DNA of 40,773 nucleotides from a virus. The translations under genes were made by a program, and so were the position numbers. Where the stretch lies: IMG/VR virus record IMGVR_UViG_3300020442_004286, positions 1 to 40,773 of that record; one strand, written 5' to 3'. The notes below the pieces were generated by a model, which did no database searches, was not told the DNA's origin, and saw nothing but the letters and a program-made list of their open reading frames with translations. Shown one piece after another: positions 4,385 through 21,037 of this stretch (the stretch's first letter is position 1; every line of letters begins with the position of its first letter).

Positions 4385-5585
4385 AATCAACTTGTTTACC
4401 TTTACGTTTAATATCTAGGGTTAAGCAATGCCAACCACCGTCCCAAAAAAATCTATGCCTTAGGGGACACACCACAGGCTCTATTTGATATTTACGTAAG
4501 TTTTCAATTAAATGTGGGTTTTCTGTGTTTACTACAACATGTCTTTCATCTAACACTAGACAGTTTACATCGAATATAGTTTCTTCTACATATCCAGTCC
4601 AGTCATGTAAAAAACTTTCTACAAACGCAGTGAATTCATCATTGTTTTCTTCTTCAGGCACCCACCACTTGCCTTGATTTTTGTGTTTCAAGTCCTTCCA
4701 GTGTTGTACCTTTGACCAGTTTGGATCTTCAAACCAAATTATTTCCCAACCTTTAAATAGATCCTTGAAAGGTTCTAAATCTCTGCTGGCTACAACTACT
4801 CCTGGCCTAATGACACTGAACACGGAATCATTATGACCACCTATAGATAATTTTTTATATTTGAATTCGGGATATTGTGTTTCTAAAAAATCTTCAACAA
4901 CAGTTGGTACTTGCCAAGTATCAACAAGACAAGTTTTTCCTATTCTAGTAAGATTAGGACTACAAAATGACGATAACATAAACCCTTCGTCTTTTTTATA
5001 CTTTGCAATATTGTTTGGTGTAACTTCTATGTTATTTTTTCCAAGGAAATTTTTTAAACTTCTATTACTACGTTCAAATTTAAATTTGCCGTCTTTTATA
5101 TCACAATCTATATTTTCTTTACCAAACCATTTTTCGTATTGAGGCAGTAATTTTTTTGTTGCAAAAGTCCAAGGATCTGTAGCTAATAATTTATTACCCA
5201 TTACAATACAATCATCTCTTGGTTGTAAAGGAGGATTCGGAACAAGACTAGGACTAACACCAGTGCTCCAAAAATTGTCATCATTTTTTTCTTCTTCGTC
5301 TCCTACATTTTTCCTATAACCTAGTTCGCCATTTACATTTACATAATCTAATATACTGTCTTTATATCCTAATTTTTTTACATCTGGTTTGTAAACTTTG
5401 ATATTATGACTCTTCATTGTATTTTCAAAATTTTCTAAATCTTCATTGGTATCATCAATAATTTTTTTCAATGCATCCTTTGCTCTTACATTTTTTACTG
5501 CATCAAAAAAATTACTGTCATAACAAGAACCTACTACAAGTTCTTCTAAAGGTTGAAATTCATCCCAACTATTAATTTTATTCAT
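4374..5585 (-). CDS. Glycine/inosamine amidinotransferase-like protein
   Basis: 403 aa, matching the usual length of L-arginine:glycine amidinotransferase and streptomycin-pathway inosamine-phosphate amidinotransferases. The N-terminus (NSWDEFQPLEELVVGSCYD) is the typical first strand of the pentein fold. GGHNDSVF supplies the catalytic His (H251), and FFWDGGWHCLTLDIKR carries the nucleophilic Cys (C387). The segment where the family has FDAAD reads FCSPNLTR, so the acidic triad member is not obvious. The family transfers an amidino group from arginine to an amine through a Cys-amidino intermediate; the acceptor is unknown. It is sandwiched between two small minus-strand genes with overlaps of 8-17 nt. 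Confidence 0.8.
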   Translation of the reverse strand: MNKINSWDEFQPLEELVVGSCYDSNFFDAVKNVRAKDALKKIIDDTNEDLENFENTMKSHNIKVYKPDVKKLGYKDSILDYVNVNGELGYRKNVGDEEEKNDDNFWSTGVSPSLVPNPPLQPRDDCIVMGNKLLATDPWTFATKKLLPQYEKWFGKENIDCDIKDGKFKFERSNRSLKNFLGKNNIEVTPNNIAKYKKDEGFMLSSFCSPNLTRIGKTCLVDTWQVPTVVEDFLETQYPEFKYKKLSIGGHNDSVFSVIRPGVVVASRDLEPFKDLFKGWEIIWFEDPNWSKVQHWKDLKHKNQGKWWVPEEENNDEFTAFVESFLHDWTGYVEETIFDVNCLVLDERHVVVNTENPHLIENLRKYQIEPVVCPLRHRFFWDGGWHCLTLDIKRKGKQVDYGI

Positions 5586-5955: not shown

Positions 5956-6984
5956 ATGGAGCAAATATTAGATATGGTTTGGAATTCGGTATCTTTATTA
6001 AGAAAACACACAAAGCAAATAGTAAAACAAGTCACAGCAGAAATCTCAAATAAATATCCTAATAGAACAGTGTATTTCAATAAATGTAGTAGAGATTTAA
6101 AGTATATTTTTACTGCTATTGCAGATTGTTTGGAATCTGATAATCAAAAATCGTTGATGTATGTAATAAAAAATTTTTTTAGAGGTGGAGAATTACGTCT
6201 ACAAAGTATTGATGTAGAAATAGAAGCATACAGTATTGCAGAAAATAAAATTCACAATTTATTTGATGCAAGTAACATAGATCCTTTATTTAAACAAAAA
6301 GTAACAGATTGTTTTGATATAATAAAAGAAAATTTTAAAAATGGTTACACTGATACAACTTATCCTGATAACTCTTGGACACAGATGTTAGAAGCGAAGA
6401 AGCAGTGTGCAACCTGGAGTGATAAAAAAGTAGATAAAGAAGAAATAGAAAGTATACTAGATGATATACACAAACACTGTAATAGTAAACAAAATAAAGT
6501 ACCTTATGAAATTAAAGTAATGGATTGGTCTAATACAGAAATGCGAGATTTACTTTTTCGTCATGCCCGCGACGAAGAATCACCAGAAGGTAAAAAGATA
6601 ACCCATTATAATACACAAGTGCTGGCTCCTTATGTGTTTTTATTCTTTGAGAGAGATGACAATACATATGATGAAAGAGATCTATTAAGGATTTCTAATT
6701 TAGAAATAGGATTAGCTGTTCAAACAGCGGCTTTAAGTGCAGTATCTAAAGGCTTGAGCGTAGGATTTTGTAAATGTTTTAATGATAGAGATAGACAAGA
6801 ATTTCACAAAAAGTTTAATGTGTTTAGTTCGCCTAGTGTTGTTCTAGGAATTGGATATTATAAAGAAAACAAAACACAAATAAATTATCATACACAAAAA
6901 CAACATCAGGCTTGGATCAGTTCAACTGTTCAAGAAGGAAAACATATTAAACCTGCAATGTATGATTATGTAAGTTATGTATAA
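5956..6984 (+). CDS. Nitroreductase-fold flavoprotein
   Basis: 342 aa. The C-terminal half (about residues 185-320) has the nitroreductase signature order: MRDLLFRHARDEE, then an APYVFLFFERD strand, then EIGLAVQTAALSAVSKGLSVGFC (the central helix with A-x4-LxG(L)xxGFC), then PSVVLGIGYY. The N-terminal ~180 residues are an unrecognised helical extension. Family members are FMN-dependent NAD(P)H oxidoreductases acting on quinones, nitro groups, flavins or peptide heterocycles. ATG 5956 lacks a Shine-Dalgarno; ATG 5974 follows GGAG at 5958 and is a good alternative. It overlaps the next radical SAM gene by 8 nt, so the two may work together. Confidence 0.65.
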   Translation: MEQILDMVWNSVSLLRKHTKQIVKQVTAEISNKYPNRTVYFNKCSRDLKYIFTAIADCLESDNQKSLMYVIKNFFRGGELRLQSIDVEIEAYSIAENKIHNLFDASNIDPLFKQKVTDCFDIIKENFKNGYTDTTYPDNSWTQMLEAKKQCATWSDKKVDKEEIESILDDIHKHCNSKQNKVPYEIKVMDWSNTEMRDLLFRHARDEESPEGKKITHYNTQVLAPYVFLFFERDDNTYDERDLLRISNLEIGLAVQTAALSAVSKGLSVGFCKCFNDRDRQEFHKKFNVFSSPSVVLGIGYYKENKTQINYHTQKQHQAWISSTVQEGKHIKPAMYDYVSYV

Positions 6985-8053
6985 TTACGAAGATATTAAA
7001 ACAATCCATTTAGAAGTGACACAAAATTGTCAAGCCGCATGTCCTATGTGCGACCGTAACATGAATGGCGAAGGGGTCAATCCGCATATTAATCTAGATG
7101 AATTAAGTTTAGAAGATTGTAAGAATATTTTTACACCTAAGTTTATTTCTCAACTTGATACTATGTTCATGTGTGGCAATTTAGGAGATCCTATAATTGC
7201 ACGTGACACATTAGAAATTTTCAGATACTTTAGAAAACACAATCAAAACATGTGGCTAAGTATGAATACTAATGGAGGAGCTAGAGATGAAGAGTGGTGG
7301 ATGGGACTGGCAGACATATTTGCTCGTCGCGGTGCTGTTATTTTTAGCGTTGATGGCTTACGATCTACAAACCACTTATACCGCCAAGGCGTTGTTTGGG
7401 ACAACGTCGAACGTTCCATGAAAGCATTTATTAAAGGTGGAGGCAGAGCTCGTTGGGATTACTTAATTTTTGAACACAATCAACATCAAGTAGAAGAAGC
7501 AGAATCTCTTAGTAAGGAATGGGGTTGCGAAAAATTTATTGCTAAAAAAACTGGCAGATTCATTACTACACAGTCTAAGAAAAAAGATACTCACCAAGCT
7601 GTAAATAAAAAAGGAAAAACTACAACACAACTTAAAAAACCTGAAAAAAAATATCAAAACAAAGCGTTAAAAAAACAAGATGTAATCATTAACAAGTACG
7701 GTAGTATGGATGTTTACTACGATGATGCTCCTATAGTTTGTAAAGTTAAAAAAGAAAACAGCTTGTTCATAACAGCTGAAGGTTTAGCTTTGCCTTGTTG
7801 TTGGACAGCAGGACGTATGTATAAGTGGTGGCATGAAGATCCATATGTTGAGCAAATATGGACTCATATTGATATTGCAGGAGGCAAACAAGCATTAGAT
7901 GCACGACAAGGCCTTGACAAAGTGTTTGACACAGGAATTTTTAATACTATTCAAGATAGTTGGAAATTAGATAGTTGTAATTTGGGAAAATTAAAAGTTT
8001 GTGCAATGAAGTGTGGAGCAGAATTTGACCCATTTACGGAGCAATTTAAATAA
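6977..8053 (+). CDS. Radical SAM/SPASM protein
   Basis: 358 aa. The cluster motif is CQAACPMC (C18, C22, C25). MFMCGNLGDPI stands where the GGEP loop normally is, as in other phage SPASM proteins. FSVDGL is a core barrel strand. A Lys/Gln-rich spacer (about residues 200-235) separates the barrel from the SPASM-like region, which has IVCKV, LPCCWT and a C334-x7-C342-x3-C346 tail. It is a paralog of the next gene, which starts on the shared TAATG. GC content rises to 43-48 % over 7321-7440, well above most of the window. Substrate unknown; peptide or small-molecule modification is typical of the family. Confidence 0.85.
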   Translation: MYNYEDIKTIHLEVTQNCQAACPMCDRNMNGEGVNPHINLDELSLEDCKNIFTPKFISQLDTMFMCGNLGDPIIARDTLEIFRYFRKHNQNMWLSMNTNGGARDEEWWMGLADIFARRGAVIFSVDGLRSTNHLYRQGVVWDNVERSMKAFIKGGGRARWDYLIFEHNQHQVEEAESLSKEWGCEKFIAKKTGRFITTQSKKKDTHQAVNKKGKTTTQLKKPEKKYQNKALKKQDVIINKYGSMDVYYDDAPIVCKVKKENSLFITAEGLALPCCWTAGRMYKWWHEDPYVEQIWTHIDIAGGKQALDARQGLDKVFDTGIFNTIQDSWKLDSCNLGKLKVCAMKCGAEFDPFTEQFK

Positions 8054-9111
8054 TGCATTACGTTGAACATCCTACAACATTACAAATTGAAATTTCATCA
8101 AATTGTAATTTGTGTTGTACAGGTTGTTGTCGGGTAGACGAAAATAGTTATGACATAAAGCCTAATAAATTTATTCCAAAAAATAAATTTTTAAGTGTTG
8201 AAATATTTAATAACCTTGTAAATGATCCTGCACTTAGTAAATTAAACAAGATTGAATTTTGCGGCACAATAGACGACCCACTTACTCATCCGAATTTTTT
8301 AGATTTTTTAAAAATTCTAAAGGAAAAGAATATTTCGTCTCAAATACATACAAACGCAAGTTTACGTACACCTGAATATTGGAAAAAAATAGCAGATTTG
8401 ACAAAACATGACGGACATACTTGTGTAAAGTTTAGTATTGATGGTTTAGAAGACACCAATCATTTATACAGACGTGGAGCTAATTGGAACAAAATTATGG
8501 AAAATGCTAAAGCATTTATAGAAGCAGGAGGAAATGCGTGGTGGCAAATGATTGTTTTTTCTTGGAATGACCATCAAATAGCTACAGCACAAAATTTAGC
8601 TAAAAAAATGGGATTTAACATGTTTAAGTATAGGCATGATAGGAGTAGGTCACCTAATGCAATCCAAGCTAAAGAAATGTCTGCTAAAAATTTTGGTACT
8701 AAAAAGACTAAAACTTACGAGCAACGAGTAAGATCTATGCAAACAATGTTACCTTTAAAAATTGAATGTTTTTCACAAAAAGAAAATTATTATTTTATAG
8801 GCCATAATGGTCAAGTTTGGCCTTGTTGTTTTTTAATGAATGCAAATTGGTCTACATTAACTCTAAGCGAAGAATATAACAATAGATTTGAAGGAAATTA
8901 TGGAAAACATTGGAATAATATAAATTACAAATCATTTAGTGAAATATTAAAATCACCTTTTTACACAGAAGATTTAGTTGATAGTTGGAAAAGTAAAAAA
9001 CACGGATCAGGTTGTAAAGACAGAGTTATAAGATGCACAGAAACTTGTAGTGTAAAAAGGTTAAAGGATAATCCTTTAGCAGATATCTCTCATGAAAATT
9101 GTATATTATAA
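8053..9111 (+). CDS. Radical SAM/SPASM protein, paralog of upstream gene
   Basis: 352 aa. The cluster motif is CNLCCTGC (C18, C22, C25) with a fourth cysteine directly after it. FCGTIDDPLTHP replaces the GGEP loop, FSIDGLEDTNHLYRRG is nearly the same as the matching part of the upstream paralog, and WPCCF plus C-terminal Cys residues (GCKD, RCTETC) form the SPASM-like region. Translation is coupled to the upstream gene (stop/start TAATG). The 3' end overlaps the convergent PLP gene by 6 nt. Confidence 0.85.
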   Translation: MHYVEHPTTLQIEISSNCNLCCTGCCRVDENSYDIKPNKFIPKNKFLSVEIFNNLVNDPALSKLNKIEFCGTIDDPLTHPNFLDFLKILKEKNISSQIHTNASLRTPEYWKKIADLTKHDGHTCVKFSIDGLEDTNHLYRRGANWNKIMENAKAFIEAGGNAWWQMIVFSWNDHQIATAQNLAKKMGFNMFKYRHDRSRSPNAIQAKEMSAKNFGTKKTKTYEQRVRSMQTMLPLKIECFSQKENYYFIGHNGQVWPCCFLMNANWSTLTLSEEYNNRFEGNYGKHWNNINYKSFSEILKSPFYTEDLVDSWKSKKHGSGCKDRVIRCTETCSVKRLKDNPLADISHENCIL

Positions 9112-9945
9112 TGCTCTAAGTAAAGGTCTTACACCTACAGGTTTTCCTTCTTTGGTTTTTGCTAAATGAATTGCTTTTGTCTGATAAAGATCAAAATCTT
9201 TGCATACTTTTTCATATTTTTCTTTATACTTGTTCCAAAAATATTCAGGACCTATATGATCTATAAATTTTATACCCAGGCTTACAAGGGCTTGACTATT
9301 CATGTTAAATTCATTCATTAATGTGATTGAACCTGAGGGTTTTTCTCTAGCATATCTCAATCCAATTCTATTTCCGCCAAGTCCACCTTTACTCAAACTG
9401 ATGCCCACAGTTTTGATAGCTGGATGATTGAAATCAAAAGAAATGTGTCTGATACAACTTATCCATGCACCATCAATATGCACAGAAATATTTTTCTTAT
9501 GTGCAGAATCTAATATTTGCTCCATGTCAGGATGTACATCTCCGTAAAACGGAAATGGCATAGATATTAATAACTCTTTGTTAGGGTCTAGTGTTTCTAC
9601 TGTAGTGTATTTAATATCATTGTTAAGACGCCAATGATACTTGTAATCGTTTTCAAAAATTTGTAAACTACCACACCTTTGATACAAATCATCAATATAT
9701 TGTGTGCAACCATTTATAATATCTCTGTGTTTAAAATTTTCTAAACCAAAAAATATACTTAATTTATGATTCTTCATATATTCATCAAACTTTTCTTTAA
9801 ATAATTCGTCTAAATTGTGTGTATGTACTGGATTTTGCTTGTAAAACCCATCATAAAGTTCGTTTATTTTTTTATCGTACATAGGCTGTGGTCTAGTGTG
9901 TTGCAACCATTCTTTTGTGTACTTTCTATTTGTGCTGTCTCTCAT
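9106..9945 (-). CDS. Minimal PLP-dependent aminotransferase-like protein
   Basis: 279 aa, much shorter than the 350-450 aa of fold-type I aminotransferases. It still shows the PLP core: HIDGAW with Asp158 (pyridine-nitrogen ligand), and GISLSKGGLGGNRIGL with the candidate Schiff-base Lys186 and phosphate-contact Arg193. The chain ends soon after the large domain, so the small C-terminal domain is reduced or absent. A paralog lies at 21757-22614. It may be an aminotransferase, lyase or a degenerate regulator. It is a lone minus-strand gene between two plus-strand radical SAM blocks, with its start 40 nt from the divergent array. Confidence 0.7.
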   Translation of the reverse strand: MRDSTNRKYTKEWLQHTRPQPMYDKKINELYDGFYKQNPVHTHNLDELFKEKFDEYMKNHKLSIFFGLENFKHRDIINGCTQYIDDLYQRCGSLQIFENDYKYHWRLNNDIKYTTVETLDPNKELLISMPFPFYGDVHPDMEQILDSAHKKNISVHIDGAWISCIRHISFDFNHPAIKTVGISLSKGGLGGNRIGLRYAREKPSGSITLMNEFNMNSQALVSLGIKFIDHIGPEYFWNKYKEKYEKVCKDFDLYQTKAIHLAKTKEGKPVGVRPLLRAL

Positions 9946-9984: not shown

Positions 9985-11172
9985 ATGAAGCCGTGTATTT
10001 TGCCTTGGATAAATTTTAGCACAAATACATTCGGCAGACCCAGAGTCTGTGGATATAGCAGTGTGAAAACTCCTACTAAACTAAAAGACAGTACTCTTTC
10101 TGTTGAATGGAACAGTGACTATTTTAGAAAAATTAGGAAAGATTTTCTAGCCGGAAAGTGGCCAGAAAATTGCAGTCGTTGTGAGTATGTAGAAAAACTT
10201 AAAGGTGTTAGCAAAAGACAAGACGAAAATGGTTTTTGGTTTGATCAATACAAACATTTAATTGATCAAACAAAAGAAGATGGTAGCGTGCCGTATGACC
10301 CGCCACATATAGATGTACGCACAGGTATGATATGTAATTTAAAATGTATTCATTGTGGTACAGGAGCAAGTAGTAAATGGCAGGAAGATAAATTACTTTT
10401 AGATAAGTACCCCAACACAGAAAACTATAACATAGATAATAAATGGATTGAACAGCAAAACGAATTTTGGAATCACTTACGCAGTAAATGGCATGAAACA
10501 AAAAGATATAATTTTTTAGGCGGTGAAAGTTTTGCAAACAAAAGGCATAACGAATTTTTAAAAGATTTATCAGAAACTGAACATGCAAAAAATGTGCATC
10601 TTGCATATGTATCAAATGGGACACTTATAAATGAAGATAGGTTACAACAATTAAGTAAATTCAAACATATTGTTATGAGACTTAGTATAGATGCTTTGGA
10701 AAGGGCAGGTGAATATTTTAGATTTCCTATAAAATGGGAAACGTTTACAAAACAGCTTAAAGTAATTGATAATTTTGTTGCAGATAAAAATAATTTTGAT
10801 ATAGGAGTACAATGGACTTGTAGTAACGTAAGTATGTTTTATCTTATAGACACTTATGATATAATTAGAAAAGAATTTCCTAACATTAAATTTTTATTCT
10901 GCAATCATGTTGAATGGCCAATTCACATGAGTGCTCAGGTGTTACCACTTGAATTAAAAAATAAAATAAAAGATAAGATTGCTAATTATAATTTTAAAGA
11001 AAGAGATTTAGAAGATTATCCTTTTTATGTTAATCATATGATGGAAAAAGATTTATGGGAAGAGCACGGCCATACATTTATGAATTATCTAGATGATTTG
11101 GATACTGCAAGAAAGATTAGTTGGAGATACAATTTTCAGGAAATGGAGTTAGATAAGTATGATCCAAGATAA
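9985..11172 (+). CDS. N-terminal-twitch radical SAM protein (array member 1)
   Basis: 395 aa from ATG 9985. A longer frame from 9817 would read antisense through the PLP gene and across the promoter, and its N-terminus is unlike the family. The N-terminal twitch module has C4-x17-C22 and C63-x2-C66, linked by the helix WNSDYFRKIRKDFLAGKWP. The radical SAM motif is CNLKCIHC (C117, C121, C124), followed by an S-S-K-W segment and a GGES loop (179-182). The second twitch cysteine is C-G rather than the usual C-C. This architecture implies one SAM-binding [4Fe-4S] cluster plus one auxiliary cluster placed before the barrel. Overlaps the next gene by 14 nt. Confidence 0.85.
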   Translation: MKPCILPWINFSTNTFGRPRVCGYSSVKTPTKLKDSTLSVEWNSDYFRKIRKDFLAGKWPENCSRCEYVEKLKGVSKRQDENGFWFDQYKHLIDQTKEDGSVPYDPPHIDVRTGMICNLKCIHCGTGASSKWQEDKLLLDKYPNTENYNIDNKWIEQQNEFWNHLRSKWHETKRYNFLGGESFANKRHNEFLKDLSETEHAKNVHLAYVSNGTLINEDRLQQLSKFKHIVMRLSIDALERAGEYFRFPIKWETFTKQLKVIDNFVADKNNFDIGVQWTCSNVSMFYLIDTYDIIRKEFPNIKFLFCNHVEWPIHMSAQVLPLELKNKIKDKIANYNFKERDLEDYPFYVNHMMEKDLWEEHGHTFMNYLDDLDTARKISWRYNFQEMELDKYDPR

Positions 11173-12301
11173 ACCATTATGTTATGCTCCTTTTATAGGA
11201 ATGTATGCAACAGGATATGAGCAGTATGCACCTTGTTGTGTTGCAAAAAAAGATACATATGAAAATTTAGATCCAGCTGATTATTGGAAAAGCGAAGAGT
11301 TACAAAAAATAAGAAAAGATTTACTTGCAGGAAAATGGCCAGACGCATGTGCTTTTTGTAAAAATAAATCTGACAAAGGATTAAAAAGCGAAACATGGAT
11401 ATGGGACAAGCATATGTCTAAAGTAGATGTTGAGCTAGATATTCAATATGGTAACACTACAAAAGGACCTATGTTTTTAGATTATAGACCTAGCAATTTA
11501 TGTAATCTTAAATGTAGAATGTGTGTACCAAACGCAAGTAGTCAAATTACAAAGGAATTTCAAGAAAATCCTGAAATGCAAAAATGGTTCAAAGCACCAG
11601 AGAAAATTGTCAAGAATTTTGATTTGTTTAAAAATTTTACAAATAATATACAATTAAAACAAATAAAAATTTTAGGAGGAGAACCTACACTTGACCCATT
11701 AGTATTAGATTTTTTAGAAGCAATAATAGACAATTATGATACATTGCCTGCACTTAGATTTACTACAAACGGTACTAATCTAAATAAACGTTTTCGTAAC
11801 ATAATGGAAAAGTTTAAGGATATTCATATTGTGTTTAGTGTTGATGCAGTCGGAAGTGCATATGAATATATAAGAACAAATGCTAGTTGGAAAAAAACAA
11901 AAAAGATTATTGAAGAAATATTTGAAAAAGATATGGCAAAAGTATACGGATTTAACATTGTGTTAATGCCTTATAATATATTTCATTTAACTGATTTGCT
12001 AAAATGGTTTAAAGAGTTACAAAATAAAAATTATGATTTTGAAACATTCTATGAATTAAGTGAAGGTTATAATACTGAAATGAGTAGTGTGTTACCTGAT
12101 CATATGTCAAAAGCAACTCAATCATTGATTGATTGGAGTTTTGAAAATAATTATGACATAGATGACATTTTGAAATTGCTAGAATCAGTAACTTTTAATA
12201 CAAAAGCGTTTAATTATTTCAAGGAGTATAATAATAGTTTAGATAAAATAAGAAAAACTTCTCTTTTAAATTTAGATAAAAGGTTTGCAAATTATGCCTA
12301 A
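11159..12301 (+). CDS. N-terminal-twitch radical SAM protein (array member 2)
   Basis: 380 aa. The twitch cysteines are C8-x17-C26 (CC) and C64-x2-C67 with the helix LQKIRKDLLAGKWPD. The radical SAM motif is CNLKCRMC (C115, C119, C122), followed by VPNASSQ and ILGGEPTLDP. FSVDAVGSAYEYIR is the conserved mid-barrel strand. The SVLP motif seen in sister proteins is present. Its C-terminus (LDKIRKTSLLNLDKRF) keeps the D-x-x-R part of the shared tail motif but lost the D-x-x-P part. GGAG lies upstream of the ATG inside the preceding gene. Confidence 0.87.
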   Translation: MIQDKPLCYAPFIGMYATGYEQYAPCCVAKKDTYENLDPADYWKSEELQKIRKDLLAGKWPDACAFCKNKSDKGLKSETWIWDKHMSKVDVELDIQYGNTTKGPMFLDYRPSNLCNLKCRMCVPNASSQITKEFQENPEMQKWFKAPEKIVKNFDLFKNFTNNIQLKQIKILGGEPTLDPLVLDFLEAIIDNYDTLPALRFTTNGTNLNKRFRNIMEKFKDIHIVFSVDAVGSAYEYIRTNASWKKTKKIIEEIFEKDMAKVYGFNIVLMPYNIFHLTDLLKWFKELQNKNYDFETFYELSEGYNTEMSSVLPDHMSKATQSLIDWSFENNYDIDDILKLLESVTFNTKAFNYFKEYNNSLDKIRKTSLLNLDKRFANYA

Positions 12302-13583
12302 TTATAAAAATAAACCTGATAGTTTTTTACAAAAGAATAAGTCAATCTGTATTTTGCCTTGGATTCATACTTCTGTAAAACCCAATAGTGAAGCAAAACC
12401 TTGTTGTAGATTTCAGCATTATTTGCCTGAGCATAAAGATATAAAAAATATAAACGTAGTTGATTACAAAACACCACAAGACATTTTACAAAGTGCAGCT
12501 TATAATGAGTTGCGTGAAAAAATGTTGCGAGGTGAATTTATTCCTGGGTGTAGCAAGTGTTATAGAGAAGAAGATAGACATGGGCATAGTATGAGAATGG
12601 GAGAATGGAGTCTCTATGATTCAAAAAAAATAATCGAAAATGAAGATATTGGATTAAGATACTTGGAGGTAGCATTTGGTAACTATTGTAATTTAGCTTG
12701 TAGAACTTGTAATTCTGAATTATCAACAAATTGGTACGATGATGATATTATTTTATCTAAAGATAAGGGGTATATTGATAGAAAACCGTGGAAAAAAGTC
12801 ACTGATGTAGAATATAATTGGCCAAGTAACGAACTTACAGAATTAAAACAAATTAAATTTACAGGCGGCGAGCCTATGTTGCACCCTAACTTTATAAAAT
12901 TTATAGATATTTTAATTCAAAGCGATCTAGCAAAAAATATAAAATTAGAAATTTTTACAAATTGTAGTTGGGTTCCTAAACAAAAAGTATTAAGTAGGCT
13001 AAGCAAATTTAAGGAAATAGAAATTTGCATGTCAATTGACGGTTTTGGAAAACTTAATGATTATTTACGACATAAATCAAAATGGGAAATAGTACATGAC
13101 AGTTTAAAAACTTGGTTAGATTATGACAAAGAGAATCCTAGAGCTAATGCAGTGCTATCTCCTACAATTTCAGTATATAATATATTTGATATTTTTGAAC
13201 TAATGGATAATTATGCAAAATATAGAACAGAACGAAAATTAAAAACAGATCGTAGTCATTTGGTCATATCAACCGCAGTATATCCTGAATATGTTGGTTT
13301 TAGAAATATAGGAGATAAAGTCCGTGCAGTAGTACATTTGGAAAAAATTTATAATAGGTATACTAAAGATTTAGCAAATTACGATTTACGTTTTAAATTA
13401 ATTACTAGAGCTTTTAATAAAATAAAAAACGAAGTTGAAAAAGAAACAAATGGTGTGCATCCTAAATTTTTAGACTTTATTAAAGACTTAGATGAAATAA
13501 GAAAACAAAATTTAAAGGATTATATTCCTAATTTATATAGATATCTTGAAGATTGTGGTTGGATAAATTATGAAAAAAGATAA
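12294..13583 (+). CDS. N-terminal-twitch radical SAM protein (array member 3)
   Basis: 429 aa from ATG 12294, which follows AAAGG by 10 nt; an in-frame TTG at 12285 is possible. The twitch module is C19-x17-C37 (CC) and C86-x2-C89 in CSKCYREED. The radical SAM motif is CNLACRTC (C132, C136, C139), then S-T-N-W and FTGGEPMLHP. ICMSIDGFGKLNDYLR is the core strand. The tail LDEIRKQNLKDYIPNLYRYL matches the shared C-terminal signature. It overlaps both neighbours by 8-14 nt, consistent with a single translationally coupled operon. Confidence 0.87.
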   Translation: MPNYKNKPDSFLQKNKSICILPWIHTSVKPNSEAKPCCRFQHYLPEHKDIKNINVVDYKTPQDILQSAAYNELREKMLRGEFIPGCSKCYREEDRHGHSMRMGEWSLYDSKKIIENEDIGLRYLEVAFGNYCNLACRTCNSELSTNWYDDDIILSKDKGYIDRKPWKKVTDVEYNWPSNELTELKQIKFTGGEPMLHPNFIKFIDILIQSDLAKNIKLEIFTNCSWVPKQKVLSRLSKFKEIEICMSIDGFGKLNDYLRHKSKWEIVHDSLKTWLDYDKENPRANAVLSPTISVYNIFDIFELMDNYAKYRTERKLKTDRSHLVISTAVYPEYVGFRNIGDKVRAVVHLEKIYNRYTKDLANYDLRFKLITRAFNKIKNEVEKETNGVHPKFLDFIKDLDEIRKQNLKDYIPNLYRYLEDCGWINYEKR

Positions 13584-14874
13584 CACATTTTGTATTATGC
13601 CATTTGTGCATCAAAATCTAAAACAAGAAGGTAGAGTATGTGCTTGTTGGAGAGCTCAAGGAGATCTTGGTAATAGTACAACAGACAGTCTGCTTGACAT
13701 ATTTAATAGTTCAGAAACAAAAGAGCTTAGACGTGCATTGCTTAATGGAGAAAAACCAGAAGGTTGTAGAAGTTGTTGGGATACCGAAGATTCTAATGTA
13801 GAAAGTACAAGACAACAATGTTTTACAAATTGGAAATATGAATACAATACAATTAATTTTGCTGATGGATCAAAAACTAACGATGATGAAAATACAAAAC
13901 AATTAGAAAATTATGTAAGAAATAACATAAAAGAAGATTATAGTTATCCTGTTGAAAATTTAAAAAGTATAGAAGTAAGATTTGATAATATTTGTAATTT
14001 AATGTGTAGGCATTGCAGTCCTGTTTACAGTAGTTTATGGGAAAAGGCAGTGAAAAAAATGCCTGCTTTACAAGATGCTTCTGCAGGAAAAAGAAGAGAA
14101 GAAACACATATTAGTTTAACAGATAACATTGTTAATGAAATAGAATATCTTGCTCCAAATTTACAAGAAATTTTAATAACAGGTGGAGAACCTTTATATC
14201 ATTCAAAACATTATGAATTTTTAAAAAACTTAGAACCTTATGCAGAAAACATTACCTTAAATTATAATTCTAATTTTAGTACATTAGAGTACGGCGGCAA
14301 AAATATTATTCCTTTATGGAAAAAATTTAAAAGAGTTGGTGTACTTGTAAGTCTTGATGCTTATCCTGACATTTATTCATATATAAGAGTTTATGGAAAA
14401 ATAGATAAGGTTGAAAGTAATATTAAAAAAGCAAAAAAAGAATTAAGTAACCTTGCACTACAAGCAACTTGTACAACAAGTGTGTTGAATATTACGAGAC
14501 TTCATCACGTAATTAGATATTATATTTCTTTAAGAACAGGAATACATGCAAGTATAGTTCAATATCCTAGTCAACTCAACCCTAGGGTTTTACCAAAACA
14601 GCTAAAAGAAAAAATTACACATGAATGGAAAAATTTTGTAGAAAATTTAGATAATATCTTGGACGAAGAAAAAGTTTTTAACAAAAAATATCGAGACTAT
14701 TGTAAAAGGAGAATTCCACAAGTAGGAAATAAAATGATAAAGTATATGAATTCTGTGGATAACTTTGATTCTGATTGGAAATCATTTATTAATTTTGCAA
14801 AAACACAAGACGAATACCATAATACAGATATTTTAGATTATTATCCAGAGTTTAAGGAGTATTGGAATGTCTAA
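13570..14874 (+). CDS. N-terminal-twitch radical SAM protein (array member 4)
   Basis: 434 aa. The twitch module is C8-x17-C26 (read as C-A-C, with an extra Cys24) and C66-x2-C69 in CRSCWDTED. The radical SAM motif is CNLMCRHC (C142, C146, C149), followed by SPVYSSLW and ITGGEPLYHS. The core strand LVSLDAYPDIYSYIR and the RVLPKQLKEKI motif are shared with array members 1, 5 and 6. The tail ILDYYPEFKEYW fits the shared C-terminal signature. The linker between twitch and barrel (about 80-130) is longer and acidic. Confidence 0.87.
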   Translation: MKKDNTFCIMPFVHQNLKQEGRVCACWRAQGDLGNSTTDSLLDIFNSSETKELRRALLNGEKPEGCRSCWDTEDSNVESTRQQCFTNWKYEYNTINFADGSKTNDDENTKQLENYVRNNIKEDYSYPVENLKSIEVRFDNICNLMCRHCSPVYSSLWEKAVKKMPALQDASAGKRREETHISLTDNIVNEIEYLAPNLQEILITGGEPLYHSKHYEFLKNLEPYAENITLNYNSNFSTLEYGGKNIIPLWKKFKRVGVLVSLDAYPDIYSYIRVYGKIDKVESNIKKAKKELSNLALQATCTTSVLNITRLHHVIRYYISLRTGIHASIVQYPSQLNPRVLPKQLKEKITHEWKNFVENLDNILDEEKVFNKKYRDYCKRRIPQVGNKMIKYMNSVDNFDSDWKSFINFAKTQDEYHNTDILDYYPEFKEYWNV

Positions 14875-16171
14875 TACTTTTTGTCCTATTCCCTGGAACT
14901 TTCAAGCAGTGCAAAATAATGGAACAGTGCGTGTTTGCTGTCAAATGAATATGACTAAAGGTAGAGGCACGCTATTCAAGGACGATGGTGCGCCTTATAA
15001 TGCAGGAAAAGATGATTTAGATAGTGCTAGAAATGCAAAACTTATTAAAAGCGTAAGAAAAGACATGTTACAGGGCAACTGGCCTAAGGATTGTGTGAGA
15101 TGTATGCAAGAAGAACAAAGTGGCTTACGTAGCAGAAGAATATATGAAAATGAATCTTGGAATTTGACAGTTGAACAAGCAAAAGAATTTACAGAAGGTG
15201 ATGGTACTATAGATTCTAAAAAATTTCCATTGGTATATTATGATTTAAGGTTTGGAAATTTGTGTAATTTAGCATGTAGAATGTGCGGACCAGAAGATAG
15301 TCATACTTGGTACAAAGATTGGGCAAAAATGTACGGTCCAGAATGGGATGATACACACGGCAAAGTTAAATTACAAAAAAATTCAAAAGGTAGATGGGTA
15401 ACTGATGCATATGATTGGCATTACAGCACAAAATTTTGGGATCATATAGAATCTAATTTACAAAATATTCAACATGTTTATATGGCAGGTGGAGAACCAT
15501 TGTTAATTGAGCGTCATTATGAATTTTTACAAAAGTGTATTGATGCAGGTGTTGCAAAAAATATTATTATAGAATATAATACAAATTTAACAAATATTCC
15601 TCACAAAGTTTTACCTATGTGGGAAAAATTTAAACTTATAAGAATAGGTGCAAGTATTGACGGATATGGTAAAGTCCAAGAATACCAAAGATATCCTTCT
15701 AAATGGTCTGCTATAGAAAAAAACTTACAAAAAATCGATAGTATGCCCCAAAATATTTCAGCTTGGATTGCTTTTACTGTTACAAATATAAATGTCTATC
15801 ATGTGCCTGAATTTATTTCTTGGAAATTACAACAAAATTTTAAAAAAATAAACAAAGGAAAAACAAAAATTATTACGCATCATGTTTGTCATAAACCTTG
15901 GTACAGTAGTATAAGAGTTTTGCCTAGTAATACCAAAAAAGATATCACAGCTCATTATGAAGATTGGAAAGAAAAGTTTGAAACATATGATGATAATACC
16001 AAGAAACGTGCATGTTCAATTTTAGACAGTATAAGTAACTACATGAATGCAAAAGATGAGAGTGATAAATTATCAAATTTTGTAGAATACACTAAAAAAC
16101 TTGACACAATAAGAAATCAAAGCATTTTAGATATAGTACCTCAATATAAAGACATATTCGATGAAAAATAA
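14867..16171 (+). CDS. N-terminal-twitch radical SAM protein (array member 5)
   Basis: 434 aa; AAGGAG precedes the ATG by about 8 nt. The twitch module is C6-x17-C24 (CC) and C76-x2-C79 in CVRCMQEEQSGLRSR. The radical SAM motif is CNLACRMC (C133, C137, C140), then GPEDSHTW and AGGEPLLIE. GASIDGYGKVQEYQR is the conserved core strand and RVLPSNTKKDI the shared motif in the C-terminal half. The tail LDTIRNQSILDIVPQYKDIF is the clearest form of the shared C-terminal signature. Close sister of members 6 and of the distant copy at 37788. Confidence 0.88.
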   Translation: MSNTFCPIPWNFQAVQNNGTVRVCCQMNMTKGRGTLFKDDGAPYNAGKDDLDSARNAKLIKSVRKDMLQGNWPKDCVRCMQEEQSGLRSRRIYENESWNLTVEQAKEFTEGDGTIDSKKFPLVYYDLRFGNLCNLACRMCGPEDSHTWYKDWAKMYGPEWDDTHGKVKLQKNSKGRWVTDAYDWHYSTKFWDHIESNLQNIQHVYMAGGEPLLIERHYEFLQKCIDAGVAKNIIIEYNTNLTNIPHKVLPMWEKFKLIRIGASIDGYGKVQEYQRYPSKWSAIEKNLQKIDSMPQNISAWIAFTVTNINVYHVPEFISWKLQQNFKKINKGKTKIITHHVCHKPWYSSIRVLPSNTKKDITAHYEDWKEKFETYDDNTKKRACSILDSISNYMNAKDESDKLSNFVEYTKKLDTIRNQSILDIVPQYKDIFDEK

Positions 16172-17570
16172 AGTAAGTGATACATTTTGTTTGCTACCAT
16201 GGGTACATTTAAGTACTAGGCCTGATGGCTCAATGAGAGTCTGTTGTACTGCTAACGCAAGTAGCGTAGGGCCAACTAATGATAAAAAGTATGGAGGCCA
16301 AGTAGGTATATTAAAAGATGATGAAGGTAGGCCTAACAACTTAAATGTAAGTGATTTTCAGACTGCTTGGAACAGTGAATATATGAAAAATGTTCGGCTA
16401 CAGATGTTAAACGGTGAAAAACCTCCTAGTTGTCTCAAGTGTTATAAAGAAGAAGATGCAGGGCATCGTAGTAAACGCATGTGGGAAACAGATTACTGGA
16501 GTAAACGTGTAGATGTAGATAAAATTCTACAAGAAACAAATGCAGATGGAAGTGTGCCGCCTAATTTAGCTTATATAGATTTGCGTTTTGGAACTAAATG
16601 TCAACTTGCTTGTGTAATGTGTTCGCCACACGACAGTAGTGGTTGGATAAAAGATTACAAAGCAATTTTTCCAGCAGTAAAAAATGAGTCATTAAAAGAA
16701 ATAATGCAATGGAAAGATAAAGGTTCTACTAACGGAAGTAGTTACAATTGGCATAAACAAAATCCTACTTTTTGGAAACAGTTTTACGAACAAATGCCAA
16801 GTATGCAACAGATTTATTTTGCTGGTGGCGAAAGTTTAATTATAGAAGAACACTACGAAATCCTTGAACATGCTATTAAAATGGGTTATGCAAAAGATCT
16901 TGAACTTCGATATAATTCTAATGGTGTAGAATGGCGAGAAGATTTATTTGATTTATGGAAGGAATTTAAACTTGTAAGATTTCATTATTCTATTGATAGT
17001 ATTAAACAAATGAATGATTACATCAGGTACCCTAGTAATTGGAAACGCCAAGAAGAAGTATTTCATCTTTTAGATACACAAACAACAGATAATGTTGAAG
17101 TGACTATTGCTACAGCCGTTCAGGCATTAAACATTTACTATCTACCTGATTTGATACAATGGAAATTAGAACAGAATTTTAAAAAAGTAAACATGTGGCC
17201 ATTTGGTGCAGGAGGTATAAGTCAACACTTTGTTTATTGGCCTGGTCATCTTAATGTCAAAGTTTTGCCTAAATGGTTTAAAGAAGAATGCCATAAAAAA
17301 TATGAATCATGGTATCCTTGGTGGGAAAAGAACTGGGAGCTAGGAATTCCTAGTTGGCATAAAGGAAAAGTAAATTTTGCTCAATGGCGCACAGCAGAAT
17401 ATGGAATCAAAAGATTAGAAGGAATTTTAAGTTTTATGGATAGCGAAGACTGGAGCAGACGCTTACCAGAAATGCAAGAATTTTTACAATTATGTGATCA
17501 GCAAAGAGGTATAAGTTTTGCAGAAACATTTCCGGAGATGAAGGACATATTTATTGACTTGCAACAATAA
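16161..17570 (+). CDS. N-terminal-twitch radical SAM protein (array member 6)
   Basis: 469 aa, the longest of the set. The twitch module is C10-x17-C28 (CC) and C91-x2-C94 in CLKCYKEEDAGHRSKR. The radical SAM motif is CQLACVMC (C147, C151, C154), followed by SPHDSSGW and AGGESLIIEE (S in place of P). FHYSIDSIKQMNDYIR is the core strand. The KVLPKWFKEEC motif and the tail CDQQRGISFAETFPEMKDIF are conserved. Extra Trp/Tyr-rich residues around 390-420 (WYPWWEKNWE) distinguish it from its sisters. It ends 18 nt before the next gene. Confidence 0.88.
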   Translation: MKNKVSDTFCLLPWVHLSTRPDGSMRVCCTANASSVGPTNDKKYGGQVGILKDDEGRPNNLNVSDFQTAWNSEYMKNVRLQMLNGEKPPSCLKCYKEEDAGHRSKRMWETDYWSKRVDVDKILQETNADGSVPPNLAYIDLRFGTKCQLACVMCSPHDSSGWIKDYKAIFPAVKNESLKEIMQWKDKGSTNGSSYNWHKQNPTFWKQFYEQMPSMQQIYFAGGESLIIEEHYEILEHAIKMGYAKDLELRYNSNGVEWREDLFDLWKEFKLVRFHYSIDSIKQMNDYIRYPSNWKRQEEVFHLLDTQTTDNVEVTIATAVQALNIYYLPDLIQWKLEQNFKKVNMWPFGAGGISQHFVYWPGHLNVKVLPKWFKEECHKKYESWYPWWEKNWELGIPSWHKGKVNFAQWRTAEYGIKRLEGILSFMDSEDWSRRLPEMQEFLQLCDQQRGISFAETFPEMKDIFIDLQQ

Positions 17571-17588
17571 ATGTGTTAGTATAAAGGT

Positions 17589-18701
17589 ATGTCTGAAGAT
17601 TTAAAATGGAGCAATTATGACTTTACAAAAATACCTTTCAAGGATATTGTAAGTGTAGGTCAACGAACTCTCTTATATAGAGATCTATTTACTGTATCTT
17701 GGTTATTAGGAAGATTTTGCAATTATAGATGTTCGTATTGTTGGCCTTATGCAAGAAGCGATAGGAAAGATCATAGACCAACAGAACTATGTTTACGCAC
17801 TATAGACAGTATAAAGGAGCAAGCACGTGACAACGGTTTTAATTCTTTTCATTTTAGTTTATCTGGTGGCGAGCCTACGTTTCACCCAGGATATCTTGAC
17901 ATCCTTAAATATTTGGCTGATGACGTCAGCAATACTAATTACACTAGTATACATATGACCTCTAATTGTTCCAGACCTATTAAATGGTTTGAGACTTATG
18001 TAGAATATGCAAAACCTTTTCATCGTGCAAGTATTACAGCAAGCCTTCATACAGAACATGTAAATACAAAAGAAAAGATGCAAGAGTTTGCAGATAAACT
18101 TAACTTATGTCAGGAGAACGATGTACAAATTACAATTAATCAAGTTATGGTTCCAGAATGGTTTGAAAGAGATTGGGAAAACGCTCTCTTCTTCCACGAA
18201 AGAGGTATCAATGTTACTCTTAAACCTCAGTCCGATCCAACAGCCTCAAGAGTGGTTGATGGATACAAAAAAGAACAACTCGAAAGACTCTGGAACGGAA
18301 TGCCGCAAAGAGCCTTCACCGAAGCGAAACGTATTTGGAATAACCGTCCACGACCACAGTTTCAAGTTCCCGCAGGAATAACCGGAAAAAATGATGCTAG
18401 TGTGCCTTGGCACATGCAGGTAGAATTAGAAGACTCTAAAGGAACAAAGTGGTATATGGACCAAGCAGAACGCTTTAATGCCTTTAATTTCAATAATTTC
18501 GAAGGATGGCGGTGTAACGCCGGTTTTAGCGGAATAATAATACGGGAGCCTGACGGTTCTGTAAAAAGAAGTTATTCGTGCCATGATGCACCTCTTGGTA
18601 ACATAGAAACAGGTTTTACCTTATTTAAAGAGCCAAAAACGTGTATTACAAAAAGTTGTGTCAGTTCAGCAGATTCTAAGATACCCAAGAGAAAAGTTTA
18701 A
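17589..18701 (+). CDS. Radical SAM protein with SPASM-like C-terminus, inside the N-twitch array
   Basis: 370 aa; ATG follows AAAGG. The radical SAM motif is CNYRCSYC (C44, C48, C51) and SLSGGEPTFHP is the SAM loop. There is no N-terminal twitch; instead the C-terminus has W-R-C309 ... S-C331 ... T-C352-x4-C357 with LGNIETGFTL, as in the protein at 2498-3478. Composition is unusual: 18181-18420 is about 47 % GC with CTC/ACC/CGT codons against about 25-30 % in neighbours, suggesting that part of the gene came recently from a higher-GC relative. It is the only non-N-twitch member within the nine-gene block. Confidence 0.85.
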   Translation: MSEDLKWSNYDFTKIPFKDIVSVGQRTLLYRDLFTVSWLLGRFCNYRCSYCWPYARSDRKDHRPTELCLRTIDSIKEQARDNGFNSFHFSLSGGEPTFHPGYLDILKYLADDVSNTNYTSIHMTSNCSRPIKWFETYVEYAKPFHRASITASLHTEHVNTKEKMQEFADKLNLCQENDVQITINQVMVPEWFERDWENALFFHERGINVTLKPQSDPTASRVVDGYKKEQLERLWNGMPQRAFTEAKRIWNNRPRPQFQVPAGITGKNDASVPWHMQVELEDSKGTKWYMDQAERFNAFNFNNFEGWRCNAGFSGIIIREPDGSVKRSYSCHDAPLGNIETGFTLFKEPKTCITKSCVSSADSKIPKRKV

Positions 18702-18702
18702 C

Positions 18703-19896
18703 ATGAATAATTTAGATACTATTTGCACATATCCTTGGACATGGTTTAGTTTTAATGTTGATTATGGAATGTGGCGAATATGTCCTAGAAGTGAATATAG
18801 GTGGTTTCAAAATGAAAAAGAAGTAAATGATTTTTTCAACACACCTACCCAACAGGATATACGTAAATCTTTATATAATGGTATAAGACATAGTAACTGC
18901 AAAGATTGTTACACAGCAGAAGATAAAGGAGGAATGAGTTATAGAAAAGCATTAAAAAGAAACTATGAAGTGCAAAATGCAGATTCTGTAATTTTAAATT
19001 CTCCTAAAGTTATTGAATTAAAATTTAGTAATTTGTGTAATTTAAAATGTGTGTTTTGTGCCAGTGTGTGTAGTAGTTTATGGGAGCATGAAGTTGGTTT
19101 GCCAAAATATGTTACTAAAAATCAAAAAGTTTCTGCAGATTATATGAAAAAAGTTATATTTGATTGGCTTGAAAATAATATAGAAAGTTTAGATTGTATT
19201 ATGTATTTAGGTGGTGAACCTGCTATACAACCTGAATTCTATGATATAGTAGATTTACTTGTCAAACACAGTCCTGAGAAAGTTGGCGTTAAAGAATTGA
19301 CCTTTAGTACAAATACTTATTATGGTGATGCTCATAGGAAAAAATTTGAAGATGCAATACAAAAAGTTTTAGATGTAGGGCATACAATATTTCCTAGAGT
19401 GAGCTTAGACGGAATTGGGGATAAGCAAATATACCAGAGAACAAATTTAAAATGGGAAAATTTTGAAAAAAACATGTTAAGTTTTTTTAATAAATTTAAC
19501 ATGAAAACACCTGGTGTTACAAAAGTAAGAGCAAATATTGCATTGAATATTTTAAATTTAATTTATTGTGAAGAAATAGTAAAATATTTAGACAATATGG
19601 GATATGGAGATATAGAACCACATTATAATTATATTGTTAAACCTGAAATGTTTTATATGCGTCATTGGGGAAGTAGATTGAACAAAGCAATAGATATTAT
19701 ACAAACACAAGATTTTAAAAACCATAAAAAGTACAAGCAACATATTTTAAAAATGGCTAAGTCGTTTACAAATTTAGAGCCAAATTTAGATCATATTAAA
19801 AAAACAAAAAAATGGATTGAAGAATACGATGAAAAAAACAATTTAAATTTTCAAAACATTTTTCCAGAAAATAGGTTTATGTTTGATGAAATGTAG
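18703..19896 (+). CDS. N-terminal-twitch radical SAM protein (array member 7)
   Basis: 397 aa from ATG 18703, one base after the previous stop; the in-frame extension to 18658 runs through the upstream gene and lacks family features. The twitch module has C8-x18-C27 (one residue longer, C-P instead of C-C) and C66-x2-C69 in CKDCYTAED. The radical SAM motif is CNLKCVFC (C112, C116, C119), then S-V-C-S-S-L-W and LGGEPAIQP. VSLDGIGDKQIYQR is the core strand. The tail NLNFQNIFPENRFMF is a variant of the shared C-terminal signature. Confidence 0.85.
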   Translation: MNNLDTICTYPWTWFSFNVDYGMWRICPRSEYRWFQNEKEVNDFFNTPTQQDIRKSLYNGIRHSNCKDCYTAEDKGGMSYRKALKRNYEVQNADSVILNSPKVIELKFSNLCNLKCVFCASVCSSLWEHEVGLPKYVTKNQKVSADYMKKVIFDWLENNIESLDCIMYLGGEPAIQPEFYDIVDLLVKHSPEKVGVKELTFSTNTYYGDAHRKKFEDAIQKVLDVGHTIFPRVSLDGIGDKQIYQRTNLKWENFEKNMLSFFNKFNMKTPGVTKVRANIALNILNLIYCEEIVKYLDNMGYGDIEPHYNYIVKPEMFYMRHWGSRLNKAIDIIQTQDFKNHKKYKQHILKMAKSFTNLEPNLDHIKKTKKWIEEYDEKNNLNFQNIFPENRFMFDEM

Positions 19897-21037
19897 TTTA
19901 CTTGATCATGGCTTATATTTTTACCCAGAAAAAGATAACCTTGCTTCTAGCAAGGCCTGCTGTCATTTTTCTAGAAACAAATTAAATCGTATAAGCCTGT
20001 CAAATTTATCTAATATCTTTGAAGATGAACACAGAATTTCTGCAAAAAATGCGTTAAAAAATAACGAAAATTTTGATAGTTGTAATTCATGTTGGAAGCA
20101 TGAAAAAGTAGGTTATCCTAGTATGCGTACTAGAGTAAATGAATTAGGAATAAAAGGAGAATACGGCGAATTAAAATATTTAGAATTAAACACTGGAAAT
20201 ACTTGTAACATACAATGTGTGATGTGTAATCCAAACGATAGCATGAAAACAAAAATGTATATTCCTATTCGTGAAAAATATAAACAGATTGATTCATCAA
20301 GATGGGAAAATTTATATGCAAGAGGCCTGCATAAAACAGACATTGATGCTTTAGATTTTAGTGTGTTTAAAAATTTAGAATATCTTAAAAGCACTGGAGG
20401 TGAAACTTTTTATAGCAAAGAATATTGGTATATGTTAGAAAAGTTTATAGATAAAGGTTATGCACAAAATATTACTATTATAAATGTTACAAATAATACT
20501 ATTCCTCTAGATAAAACAAAACTTGAAATATTTAAAAATTTTAAAAGAGTAAAAATTTTTAGCAGTGTTGACGGAATAGGTGAATTATGTGAATCTATTA
20601 GGGCTGGCAGTGTTTGGAATGATGTAAACGATAATATTAAGCATTTAATAGAACTTAATAAAGAGTATCCTAAAATATTTTCACACACTGAACCACATAC
20701 AGTGGTTCAATATGCAAACGCTTTACAGCTTGACGAAATTGTAAATTGGTGGGAAAAGATCAGCCATCCTGCTTTTAGAACAAAACAGTATTTTAGGATT
20801 TTAGATCAGCCTAGTTATTATGACATAAGAAATTTAAACAAGAATATAAAAGATAAAATACAAAACAGATATAAAAATATTCATAAATTAAAACATGTAG
20901 TAAATTATTTGAAAACAAATAAAAGTCTATATGATAGTGAAATGGGTTACAATATTTTCAATGAAAGTTGTCTTATCAATAAAGTAAATCCATTATCGTC
21001 ACATGTGCATAAGGAGATGGAAGATGCTATACAGTAA
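19886..21037 (+). CDS. N-terminal-twitch radical SAM protein, divergent (array member 8)
   Basis: 383 aa from ATG 19886 (in-frame TTG at 19883 also possible). The twitch module is changed: C3-x21-C25 (CC), without the usual C-x-x-P-W motif, and C66-x2-C69 in CNSCWKHEKVGYPS. The radical SAM motif is CNIQCVMC (C107, C111, C114), followed by NPNDSMKT and STGGETFYS, so both the S-x-W and P of GGEP are altered. FSSVDGIGELCESIR is the core strand. The shared C-terminal signature is absent. It carries two perfect small inverted repeats in its DNA. Probably a different substrate or a partner subunit. Confidence 0.82.
   Translation: MKCSLLDHGLYFYPEKDNLASSKACCHFSRNKLNRISLSNLSNIFEDEHRISAKNALKNNENFDSCNSCWKHEKVGYPSMRTRVNELGIKGEYGELKYLELNTGNTCNIQCVMCNPNDSMKTKMYIPIREKYKQIDSSRWENLYARGLHKTDIDALDFSVFKNLEYLKSTGGETFYSKEYWYMLEKFIDKGYAQNITIINVTNNTIPLDKTKLEIFKNFKRVKIFSSVDGIGELCESIRAGSVWNDVNDNIKHLIELNKEYPKIFSHTEPHTVVQYANALQLDEIVNWWEKISHPAFRTKQYFRILDQPSYYDIRNLNKNIKDKIQNRYKNIHKLKHVVNYLKTNKSLYDSEMGYNIFNESCLINKVNPLSSHVHKEMEDAIQ
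19939..19955. other. Perfect 6-bp hairpin inside coding sequence
   Basis: CCTTGC-ttcta-GCAAGG lies about 50 nt downstream of the start of array member 8. It is GC-rich for the region. A T5 run begins about 11 nt after the stem, so it is not a clean intrinsic terminator. Confidence 0.4.
20689..20709. other. Perfect 8-bp hairpin inside coding sequence
   Basis: TGAACCAC-ataca-GTGGTTCA lies within array member 8. No T-run follows, so an intrinsic terminator is unlikely. It could be an mRNA structure, a protein-binding site or chance. Confidence 0.45.

Follow-up and report, generated by a model that had tools for sequence, protein, structure and literature searches.

A variable, tail-adjacent island of radical SAM enzymes with an N-terminal twitch module in uncultured T4-like phages

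Phage gene modules rich in radical S-adenosylmethionine (SAM) enzymes have been noted since 2010, and no function has been proposed for them beyond auxiliary metabolism. The Campylobacter phages CP220 and CPt10 encode 11–12 radical SAM proteins (PMC2853527), including those of an interchangeable module, five radical SAM genes plus an amidinotransferase, that varies between near-identical phages (PMC2853527, Timms 2010). Among marine phages, the T4-like TARA_ERS488813_N000010 is credited with 12 radical SAM genes (PMC5332604), and pelagimyophages carry radical SAM cassettes in their host-recognition cluster (PMC7029224). The NCBIfam model N_Twi_rSAM (NF033640; whole-protein cut-off 170 bits) defines radical SAM proteins with an N-terminal twitch module (N-twitch); the family entry assigns no function and does not cover dense viral arrays, a core gene order or partner genes. 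Here we analyse IMG/VR record IMGVR_UViG_3300020442_004286, whose 40,773 bases (30% G+C; the whole stretch is called the window) contain 16 radical SAM genes (Pfam PF04055), nine of them adjoining at 9985–21037. This array appears to be a radical-SAM-rich variable island of T4-like phages, tail-adjacent in its relatives and of a kind that is common in uncultured ones.

The array is formed by nine plus-strand open reading frames that overlap or abut (intergenic gaps ≤18 nt), each with a radical SAM domain. Eight match NF033640 (192–421 bits), and copies beginning at 26872 and 37788 bring the N-twitch proteins of the window to ten; nine of the ten pass the cut-off, the copy at 26872 falling short by 0.5 bits, and with E-values between 1e-49 and 1e-126 the matches cannot be due to chance. 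All ten retain the same pattern, C6-x17(18,21)-C24 ... C76-x2-C79, then CxxxCxxC and GGE, at 22–35% identity to the reference copy. The remaining array gene (17589–18701) matches the profile only from position 107 onwards (45 bits) and lacks the N-terminal twitch module. An earlier note, made from the letters of this DNA alone, had described both the nine adjoining genes, eight with N-twitch, and the total of ten including the two outlying copies, though not the overall count of 16 radical SAM genes; the profile search that it proposed agrees. A scan of the plus strand gave no terminator-like site at 8823–20000, its total being no higher than in shuffled sequence, and a single transcription unit is plausible. 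An independent contig, G001, is collinear with the window over 19 genes (32 to 18698), confirming the conserved synteny that the note had suggested looking for and ruling out mis-assembly for most of the array, up to 18698. The last two array genes (18703 and 19883) are missing from the corresponding place in G001 and are thus accessory.

The module of CP220 and CPt10 resembles this locus in bringing several radical SAM genes together with a homologous amidinotransferase near baseplate or tail genes (the latter found upstream in G001). The product of 4374–5585 is homologous to the amidinotransferases of CP220 and CPt10 (E = 1e-17 and 2e-24). The Campylobacter module also contains glycosyltransferase-like genes and, in CPt10, a pyridoxal phosphate (PLP)-like gene, and it lies just after baseplate genes. 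Its radical SAM proteins differ, however: none reaches the NF033640 cut-off (best 35 bits), and the sole twitch detected in the two phages, in CPt10_0931 (independent E-value 1.5e-6), has the usual C-terminal arrangement. A 74-residue protein of the window, described below, was not detected in the stretch of CP220/CPt10 examined. The marine systems, like this one, are T4-like phages with many radical SAM genes (PMC7029224, PMC5332604), and the pelagimyophage cluster, like the islands of the window's relatives, is a variable tail-fibre and glycosyltransferase island with radical SAM cassettes (PMC7029224); in the sections used, neither account identifies the N-twitch class, how its copies are structured, the order of the core or the small protein. 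All 50 related virus records carry the N-twitch family, with 3–21 matches each (for example, 21 in a 77-kb, 20 in a 44-kb and 16 in a 233-kb contig). The note's view of such density as highly unusual is therefore not supported, since these copy numbers are routine and radical-SAM-rich modules were published in 2010, 2017 and 2020. What appears to be unreported in the literature searched is the class of enzyme, the evolutionary structure of its copies, the fixed core and the small protein.

Profile matches align the N-terminal module to the twitch of BtrN (residues 183–259; E = 1.2e-8 and 6.7e-8), in line with the BtrN relationship and N-terminal placement given in the note, and the module precedes the radical SAM core in all ten window copies. 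BtrN, the 2-deoxy-scyllo-inosamine dehydrogenase of the butirosin pathway, shares a homologous four-cysteine twitch and radical SAM core with these proteins, but its twitch is C-terminal and whole-protein identity is low. The permutation rests on the profile matches, as Foldseek aligns in sequence order and cannot show it. BtrN holds its auxiliary cluster by four cysteines and carries out a two-electron oxidation, whereas MoaA, whose auxiliary cluster has an open site, is redox-neutral (PMC9012708). By analogy, the four conserved twitch cysteines predict a BtrN-like two-electron oxidation for the N-twitch enzymes. An AlphaFold2 model of copy 5 (14867; predicted local distance difference test (pLDDT) 95.9, predicted template modelling score 0.92) is closest among solved folds to SPASM/twitch radical SAM enzymes, including the sugar and nucleoside enzymes DesII and BlsE. 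The note had proposed that each copy might act on a different position of one substrate, or that the copies might form hetero-oligomers. Fused proteins in related loci lend some support to copies working one after another or as a single complex: one of 1412 residues (L052:317-4552) joins two N-twitch modules to an N-terminal partner, one of 820 residues (L052:4542-7001) joins an N-twitch to an aminotransferase-like domain, and one of 890 residues (L056:4573-7242) has two N-twitch modules of which the second is weaker. A further protein, L011:1514-3571 (686 residues), has an N-twitch with a 230-residue N-terminal extension.

Conservation, phylogeny and substitution rates support the view, also held in the earlier note, that the copies are old paralogues under purifying selection. 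Of 276 full-length copies from 80 viral loci, 273 fit the seven-cysteine pattern. A sample of 229 non-redundant viral copies shows 98–100% conservation of the twitch cysteines and 100% conservation of the CxxxCxxC cysteines, GGE, S263 and R275. A FastTree phylogeny of this sample, which took window copies as seeds and is weighted towards the 14867 and 16161 types, places the window copies in separate, long-diverged clades that are each approximately single-copy per contig: 54 tips from 54 contigs for the 16161 type (copy 6), 46 from 42 for the 14867 type (copy 5), 31 from 28 for copy 4 (13570), 25 from 24 for the 12285 type (copy 3) and 20 from 15 for copy 2 (11159). Recent tandem duplication is rejected, as just 8 of the 229 copies have their closest relative within their own contig. 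Between contigs, the 16161-type copy is 52–91% identical. The ratio of non-synonymous to synonymous substitution rates (dN/dS) against G001 is 0.04–0.26 over eleven genes, 0.04–0.14 for the six array N-twitch copies common to both and 0.09 for the radical SAM gene at 17589, rough values in that many dS exceed 1 or lie near saturation. Copy 1 (9985) is 96% identical to its G001 orthologue (dS 0.45, dN/dS 0.044) whereas its neighbours are 67–88% identical with higher dS, a contrast that suggests single-gene exchange. Single-copy queries of cellular genomes and a search of plasmids returned no N-twitch match, cellular relatives not being sampled by alignment.

In 32 non-redundant loci anchored on the 16161-type copy, the partners are the SPASM radical SAM protein of the 6977 type (29 loci), the 1098-type protein (26), the 14867-type N-twitch (25), the glycosyltransferase-like protein and a QueC-like protein (24 each) and the radical SAM protein of 17589 (21), nearly always on the strand of the anchor. 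Comparison of the window with G001 brought to light a small-protein gene (2281–2514), which as sole seed retrieves 72 viral contigs at 62–83% identity. Within 6 kb of it lie a glycosyltransferase in 69, a SPASM radical SAM gene in 66 and an N-twitch gene in 60 of the 72 (37, 34 and 32 of 39 with near-duplicates removed). Gene maps reveal a constant order of glycosyltransferase, small protein, SPASM radical SAM and 16161-type N-twitch, into which N-twitch, aminotransferase, amidinotransferase and 2-oxoglutarate (2OG) enzyme families are inserted, varying by phage. The small protein (74–77 residues, mostly with a TTG start) is strongly conserved in at least 72 viral contigs, with 12 invariant positions, including H, Y, S and R, in alignment A8. 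It has no credible match in Pfam, PHROGs, the PDB or isolate phages; low PDB E-values were discarded as chance, covering 15–19 residues of designed proteins. The QueC-like family (L039:13691-14482 and relatives, alignment A6; 47 of 81 loci) combines an SGGxDS motif with a four-cysteine zinc pattern, SC...CxxC..C, and diverges from true QueC (partial Pfam match; best PDB match Cap9, E = 7e-4); no member of this cluster was found in the window. A 466-residue partner family (cluster 6) was also considered, and hhalign gave no link from it to the glycosyltransferase or methyltransferase-like families. Other neighbours in related loci are UDP-sugar dehydrogenase, GDP-mannose dehydratase/epimerase, DegT/StrS aminotransferase, carbamoyltransferase and SufE.

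Judged by their sequences, the relatives are T4-like phages, some of them jumbo-sized, and the window itself, a fragment, probably derives from an uncultured jumbo T4-like phage. The T4-type major capsid protein gp23 is present in 6 of 37 related contigs, and one that was compared is 68–72% identical to those of Phosso, Vibrio phage 2.275.O and PA5oct. Upstream of the shared genes, G001 encodes a 5256-residue relative of virion structural proteins of Atu_ph07, PA5oct and Phosso, together with tail-collar-type fibre genes and two glycosyltransferase-like genes. An assignment of the window to the pelagimyophages was dropped, as the capsid and giant structural proteins of its relatives are not pelagimyophage-like and point to PA5oct/Phosso-type jumbo phages. 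In all 12 informative contigs (those with a collar-domain match comparable to listed N-twitch copies), tail-collar genes lie upstream of the array on the same strand, approximately 8–20 kb off; these contigs share ancestry and so represent one layout seen repeatedly, not twelve independent events. Simpler N-twitch sets occur in the cultured Vibrio phages K566/K567 and the KVP40-type phi-pp2, K566 carrying five N-twitch genes with three glycosyltransferase-like genes interleaved and a possible surface protein (143697–184848; L109). The marine single-cell virus AG-345-D19 (L112:89-1381, L113:2588-3904 and L111:9856-11148) has related amidinotransferases on three contigs and one N-twitch gene that is truncated where its contig ends; no host was obtained from its records.

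The array and the other genes of the window are collected in Table 1. For the protein of 32–1111, top PDB fold matches are mostly glycosyltransferases (probability 0.9–1.0, but E ~1e-3). A methyltransferase identity for 1098–2294 could not be confirmed, the sole PDB hint having an E-value of 0.3. The amidinotransferase has HsvA as its best PDB match, with further matches to 6u1r, 1jdw and 1bwd. The PLP family profile (A2) of 9106–9945 matches 3ftb (E = 4.5e-4) and 3if2 (E = 3.1e-4), D157 and K185 are invariant, and the family occurs fused to an N-twitch radical SAM protein in L052. Presence of the S-adenosylmethionine (AdoMet) decarboxylase (24371–24730) alongside the HsvA-like amidinotransferase (4374–5585) could mean polyamine or guanidine chemistry. 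The island also holds a fatty-acid hydroxylase and two fatty-acid desaturases (25289–25774, 28515–29282 and 29279–30049). An SGGxDS-type motif lies toward the N terminus of 33212–34147, 34113–35018 (minus strand) and 35564–36754 (minus strand); the first two give only weak, sub-threshold PP-loop ATPase matches (QueC, NAD synthase and LarE) and the third gives none.

Table 1. Genes of the array and other assigned genes of the window
Position	Strand	Feature	Evidence or remark
32..1111	+	GT-A-fold glycosyltransferase-like, core member	AlphaFold2 C-terminal domain mostly pLDDT >90
1098..2294	+	Conserved protein, methyltransferase-like by appearance of C-terminal half	Family in 57/81 loci
2281..2514	+	Small conserved protein of the core, 77 aa, start codon TTG	
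2498..3478	+	Radical SAM, C-terminal cysteines, no N-twitch	
4374..5585	-	Amidinotransferase, HsvA/SxtG/AGAT/StrB1 superfamily	Best PDB 5wpi, E 1.7e-10
6977..8053	+	Radical SAM, C-terminal SPASM-like cysteines, core member	
8053..9111	+	Radical SAM, C-terminal SPASM-like cysteines	
9106..9945	-	Divergent fold-type I PLP protein, HisC-like aminotransferase	Profile matches in text
9985..11172	+	N-twitch copy 1, 395 aa	NF033640 299.5 bits
11159..12301	+	N-twitch copy 2, 380 aa	NF033640 245 bits
12285..13583	+	N-twitch copy 3, 432 aa	NF033640 300 bits
13570..14874	+	N-twitch copy 4, 434 aa	NF033640 317 bits
14867..16171	+	N-twitch copy 5, 434 aa, frequent core partner	NF033640 392 bits
16161..17570	+	N-twitch copy 6, 469 aa, core type	NF033640 421 bits
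17589..18701	+	Radical SAM without N-terminal twitch, conserved companion	65-90% identity in other contigs
18703..19896	+	N-twitch copy 7, accessory	NF033640 233 bits
19883..21037	+	N-twitch copy 8, accessory	NF033640 192 bits
21757..22614	+	Second PLP protein, same family as 9106-9945	
22595-23284, 23823-24374, weak 24711-25298	+	2OG-Fe(II) and Asp/Asn beta-hydroxylase-like genes	Pfam
24371-24730	+	AdoMet decarboxylase	Pfam
26872..27906	+	N-twitch copy 9, 344 aa	NF033640 169.5 bits; all seven cysteines
30059..33164	+	Two B12-binding-type radical SAM genes	
37788..39191	+	N-twitch copy 10, 467 aa	NF033640 288 bits

The analysis shows which genes are present, their homologies, how far the cysteines are conserved, the selection on the genes, the order of the core and the tail-fibre neighbourhood of the relatives; we infer the chemistry, by homology, and also the substrate and biological purpose of the array. 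The reading that we favour, which we hold to stand about evenly between right and wrong, is a variable host-recognition island in which serial two-electron oxidations decorate a glycan or glycoprotein, the decorated target being either the receptor-binding region of the virion or the surface of the infected host. The GT-A glycosyltransferase and its partners would start the product, on which the N-twitch enzymes would act in turn, each forming a 5'-deoxyadenosyl radical at its CxxxCxxC cluster, abstracting one substrate hydrogen and passing the second electron to the all-cysteine-ligated auxiliary cluster in the N-terminal twitch, as BtrN does with its C-terminal twitch. The net outcome would be a two-electron oxidation or a cross-link, and the PLP aminotransferase-like protein, the amidinotransferase and the 2OG hydroxylases could then act on the newly formed carbonyls or unsaturations. 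Product class would be set by the core (glycosyltransferase, 74-residue protein, SPASM radical SAM and 469-residue N-twitch, often with the 434-residue N-twitch, the QueC-like protein and the radical SAM protein of 17589), while accessory N-twitch copies swapped between phages would diversify it. The neighbours lean towards a glycan target, given the GT-A-fold protein, sugar-nucleotide enzymes, carbamoyltransferase, amidinotransferase and the glycosyltransferase-like genes of K566.

Several points weigh against this reading, whose substrate, product and virion modification are predictions. No virion gene, tail-fibre genes included, was found inside the window, and the upstream position of tail-fibre genes may simply reflect T4-like genome layout. 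The PLP protein is HisC-like and does not resemble sugar aminotransferases. The radical SAM core of the copy 5 model is equally close to the peptide maturases SkfB, CteB, SuiB and anSME; the closest folds act on peptides as well as on sugars and nucleosides, and the fold therefore leaves the substrate undecided. Many neighbours in related loci are peptide-type Asp/Asn hydroxylases, which leave room for a peptide target, as does the small protein of the core, and that conserved protein could itself be the substrate. An unlikely but serious contender has the 74-residue protein (2281–2514) as substrate or carrier, modified by the SPASM and N-twitch radical SAM enzymes, the glycosyltransferase and hydroxylases into a RiPP-like (ribosomally synthesized and post-translationally modified) or virion-displayed decorated peptide. 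Its location between glycosyltransferase and SPASM radical SAM genes, on the same strand in nearly all 72 contigs, its invariant positions and the peptide and protein modifiers among the top folds all fit. Yet conservation extends over its whole length, with neither a leader-plus-variable-core pattern nor conserved cysteines, no domain of the RiPP recognition element type was found, and ten enzymes are many for one 74-residue peptide; BtrN homology, moreover, suggests small-molecule alcohol oxidation, and K566 and phi-pp2 have N-twitch enzymes with no detectable homologue of the small protein. Rather improbable, in our estimate, is a widespread, undescribed pathway in which the fixed core builds a modified glycopeptide on this substrate or carrier and swappable sets of at most about 20 N-twitch enzymes diversify it.

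The remaining explanations place the chemistry elsewhere. T4-like phages often modify their DNA, and the radical SAM, QueC-like, glycosyltransferase, AdoMet decarboxylase and amidinotransferase proteins might make a modified base or sugar on phage DNA as a defence against restriction. QueC-like proteins with the zinc pattern, present in three-quarters of the anchor loci, would suit such hypermodification, but their divergence from true QueC, the failure to find a member in the window, the position of the array beside tail-fibre genes rather than nucleotide metabolism, and its extreme variability, better suited to surface variation, make this very improbable. A diffusible aminoglycoside- or guanidine-like compound made from host metabolites would account for the joint presence of a BtrN-like twitch, a StrB1/HsvA/SxtG-related amidinotransferase, a PLP protein and an AdoMet decarboxylase; we nevertheless think it highly unlikely, as neither a resistance nor an export gene could be recognised in the window, a secreted compound would be of little use to a lytic phage, and the conserved glycosyltransferase and tail-fibre position favour a macromolecular target. 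Ordinary auxiliary metabolism, with copies serving unrelated host pathways and clustered because the island gathers cargo genes, follows the classing of radical SAM genes as auxiliary metabolic or fitness genes by Nishimura 2017 and Timms 2010. It is made improbable by the conserved core order, the near single-copy orthologous clades, the fusions between copies and the same-strand packing.

This study assigns these phage enzymes to a class (four-cysteine, BtrN-type, with a permuted twitch), shows that their copies form old orthologous types and are not mere noise in copy number, and recognises a fixed core that includes a new small protein. Cultured carriers of simpler sets (K566/K567 and phi-pp2) make the question testable. 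If the glycopeptide pathway were correct, phages would possess, in addition to tail-fibre sequence, a chemical coat or receptor-binding group that evolves rapidly. If, as we favour, the receptor-binding region or the host surface is decorated, the islands would constitute an unrecognised chemical layer of phage–host recognition in the ocean.

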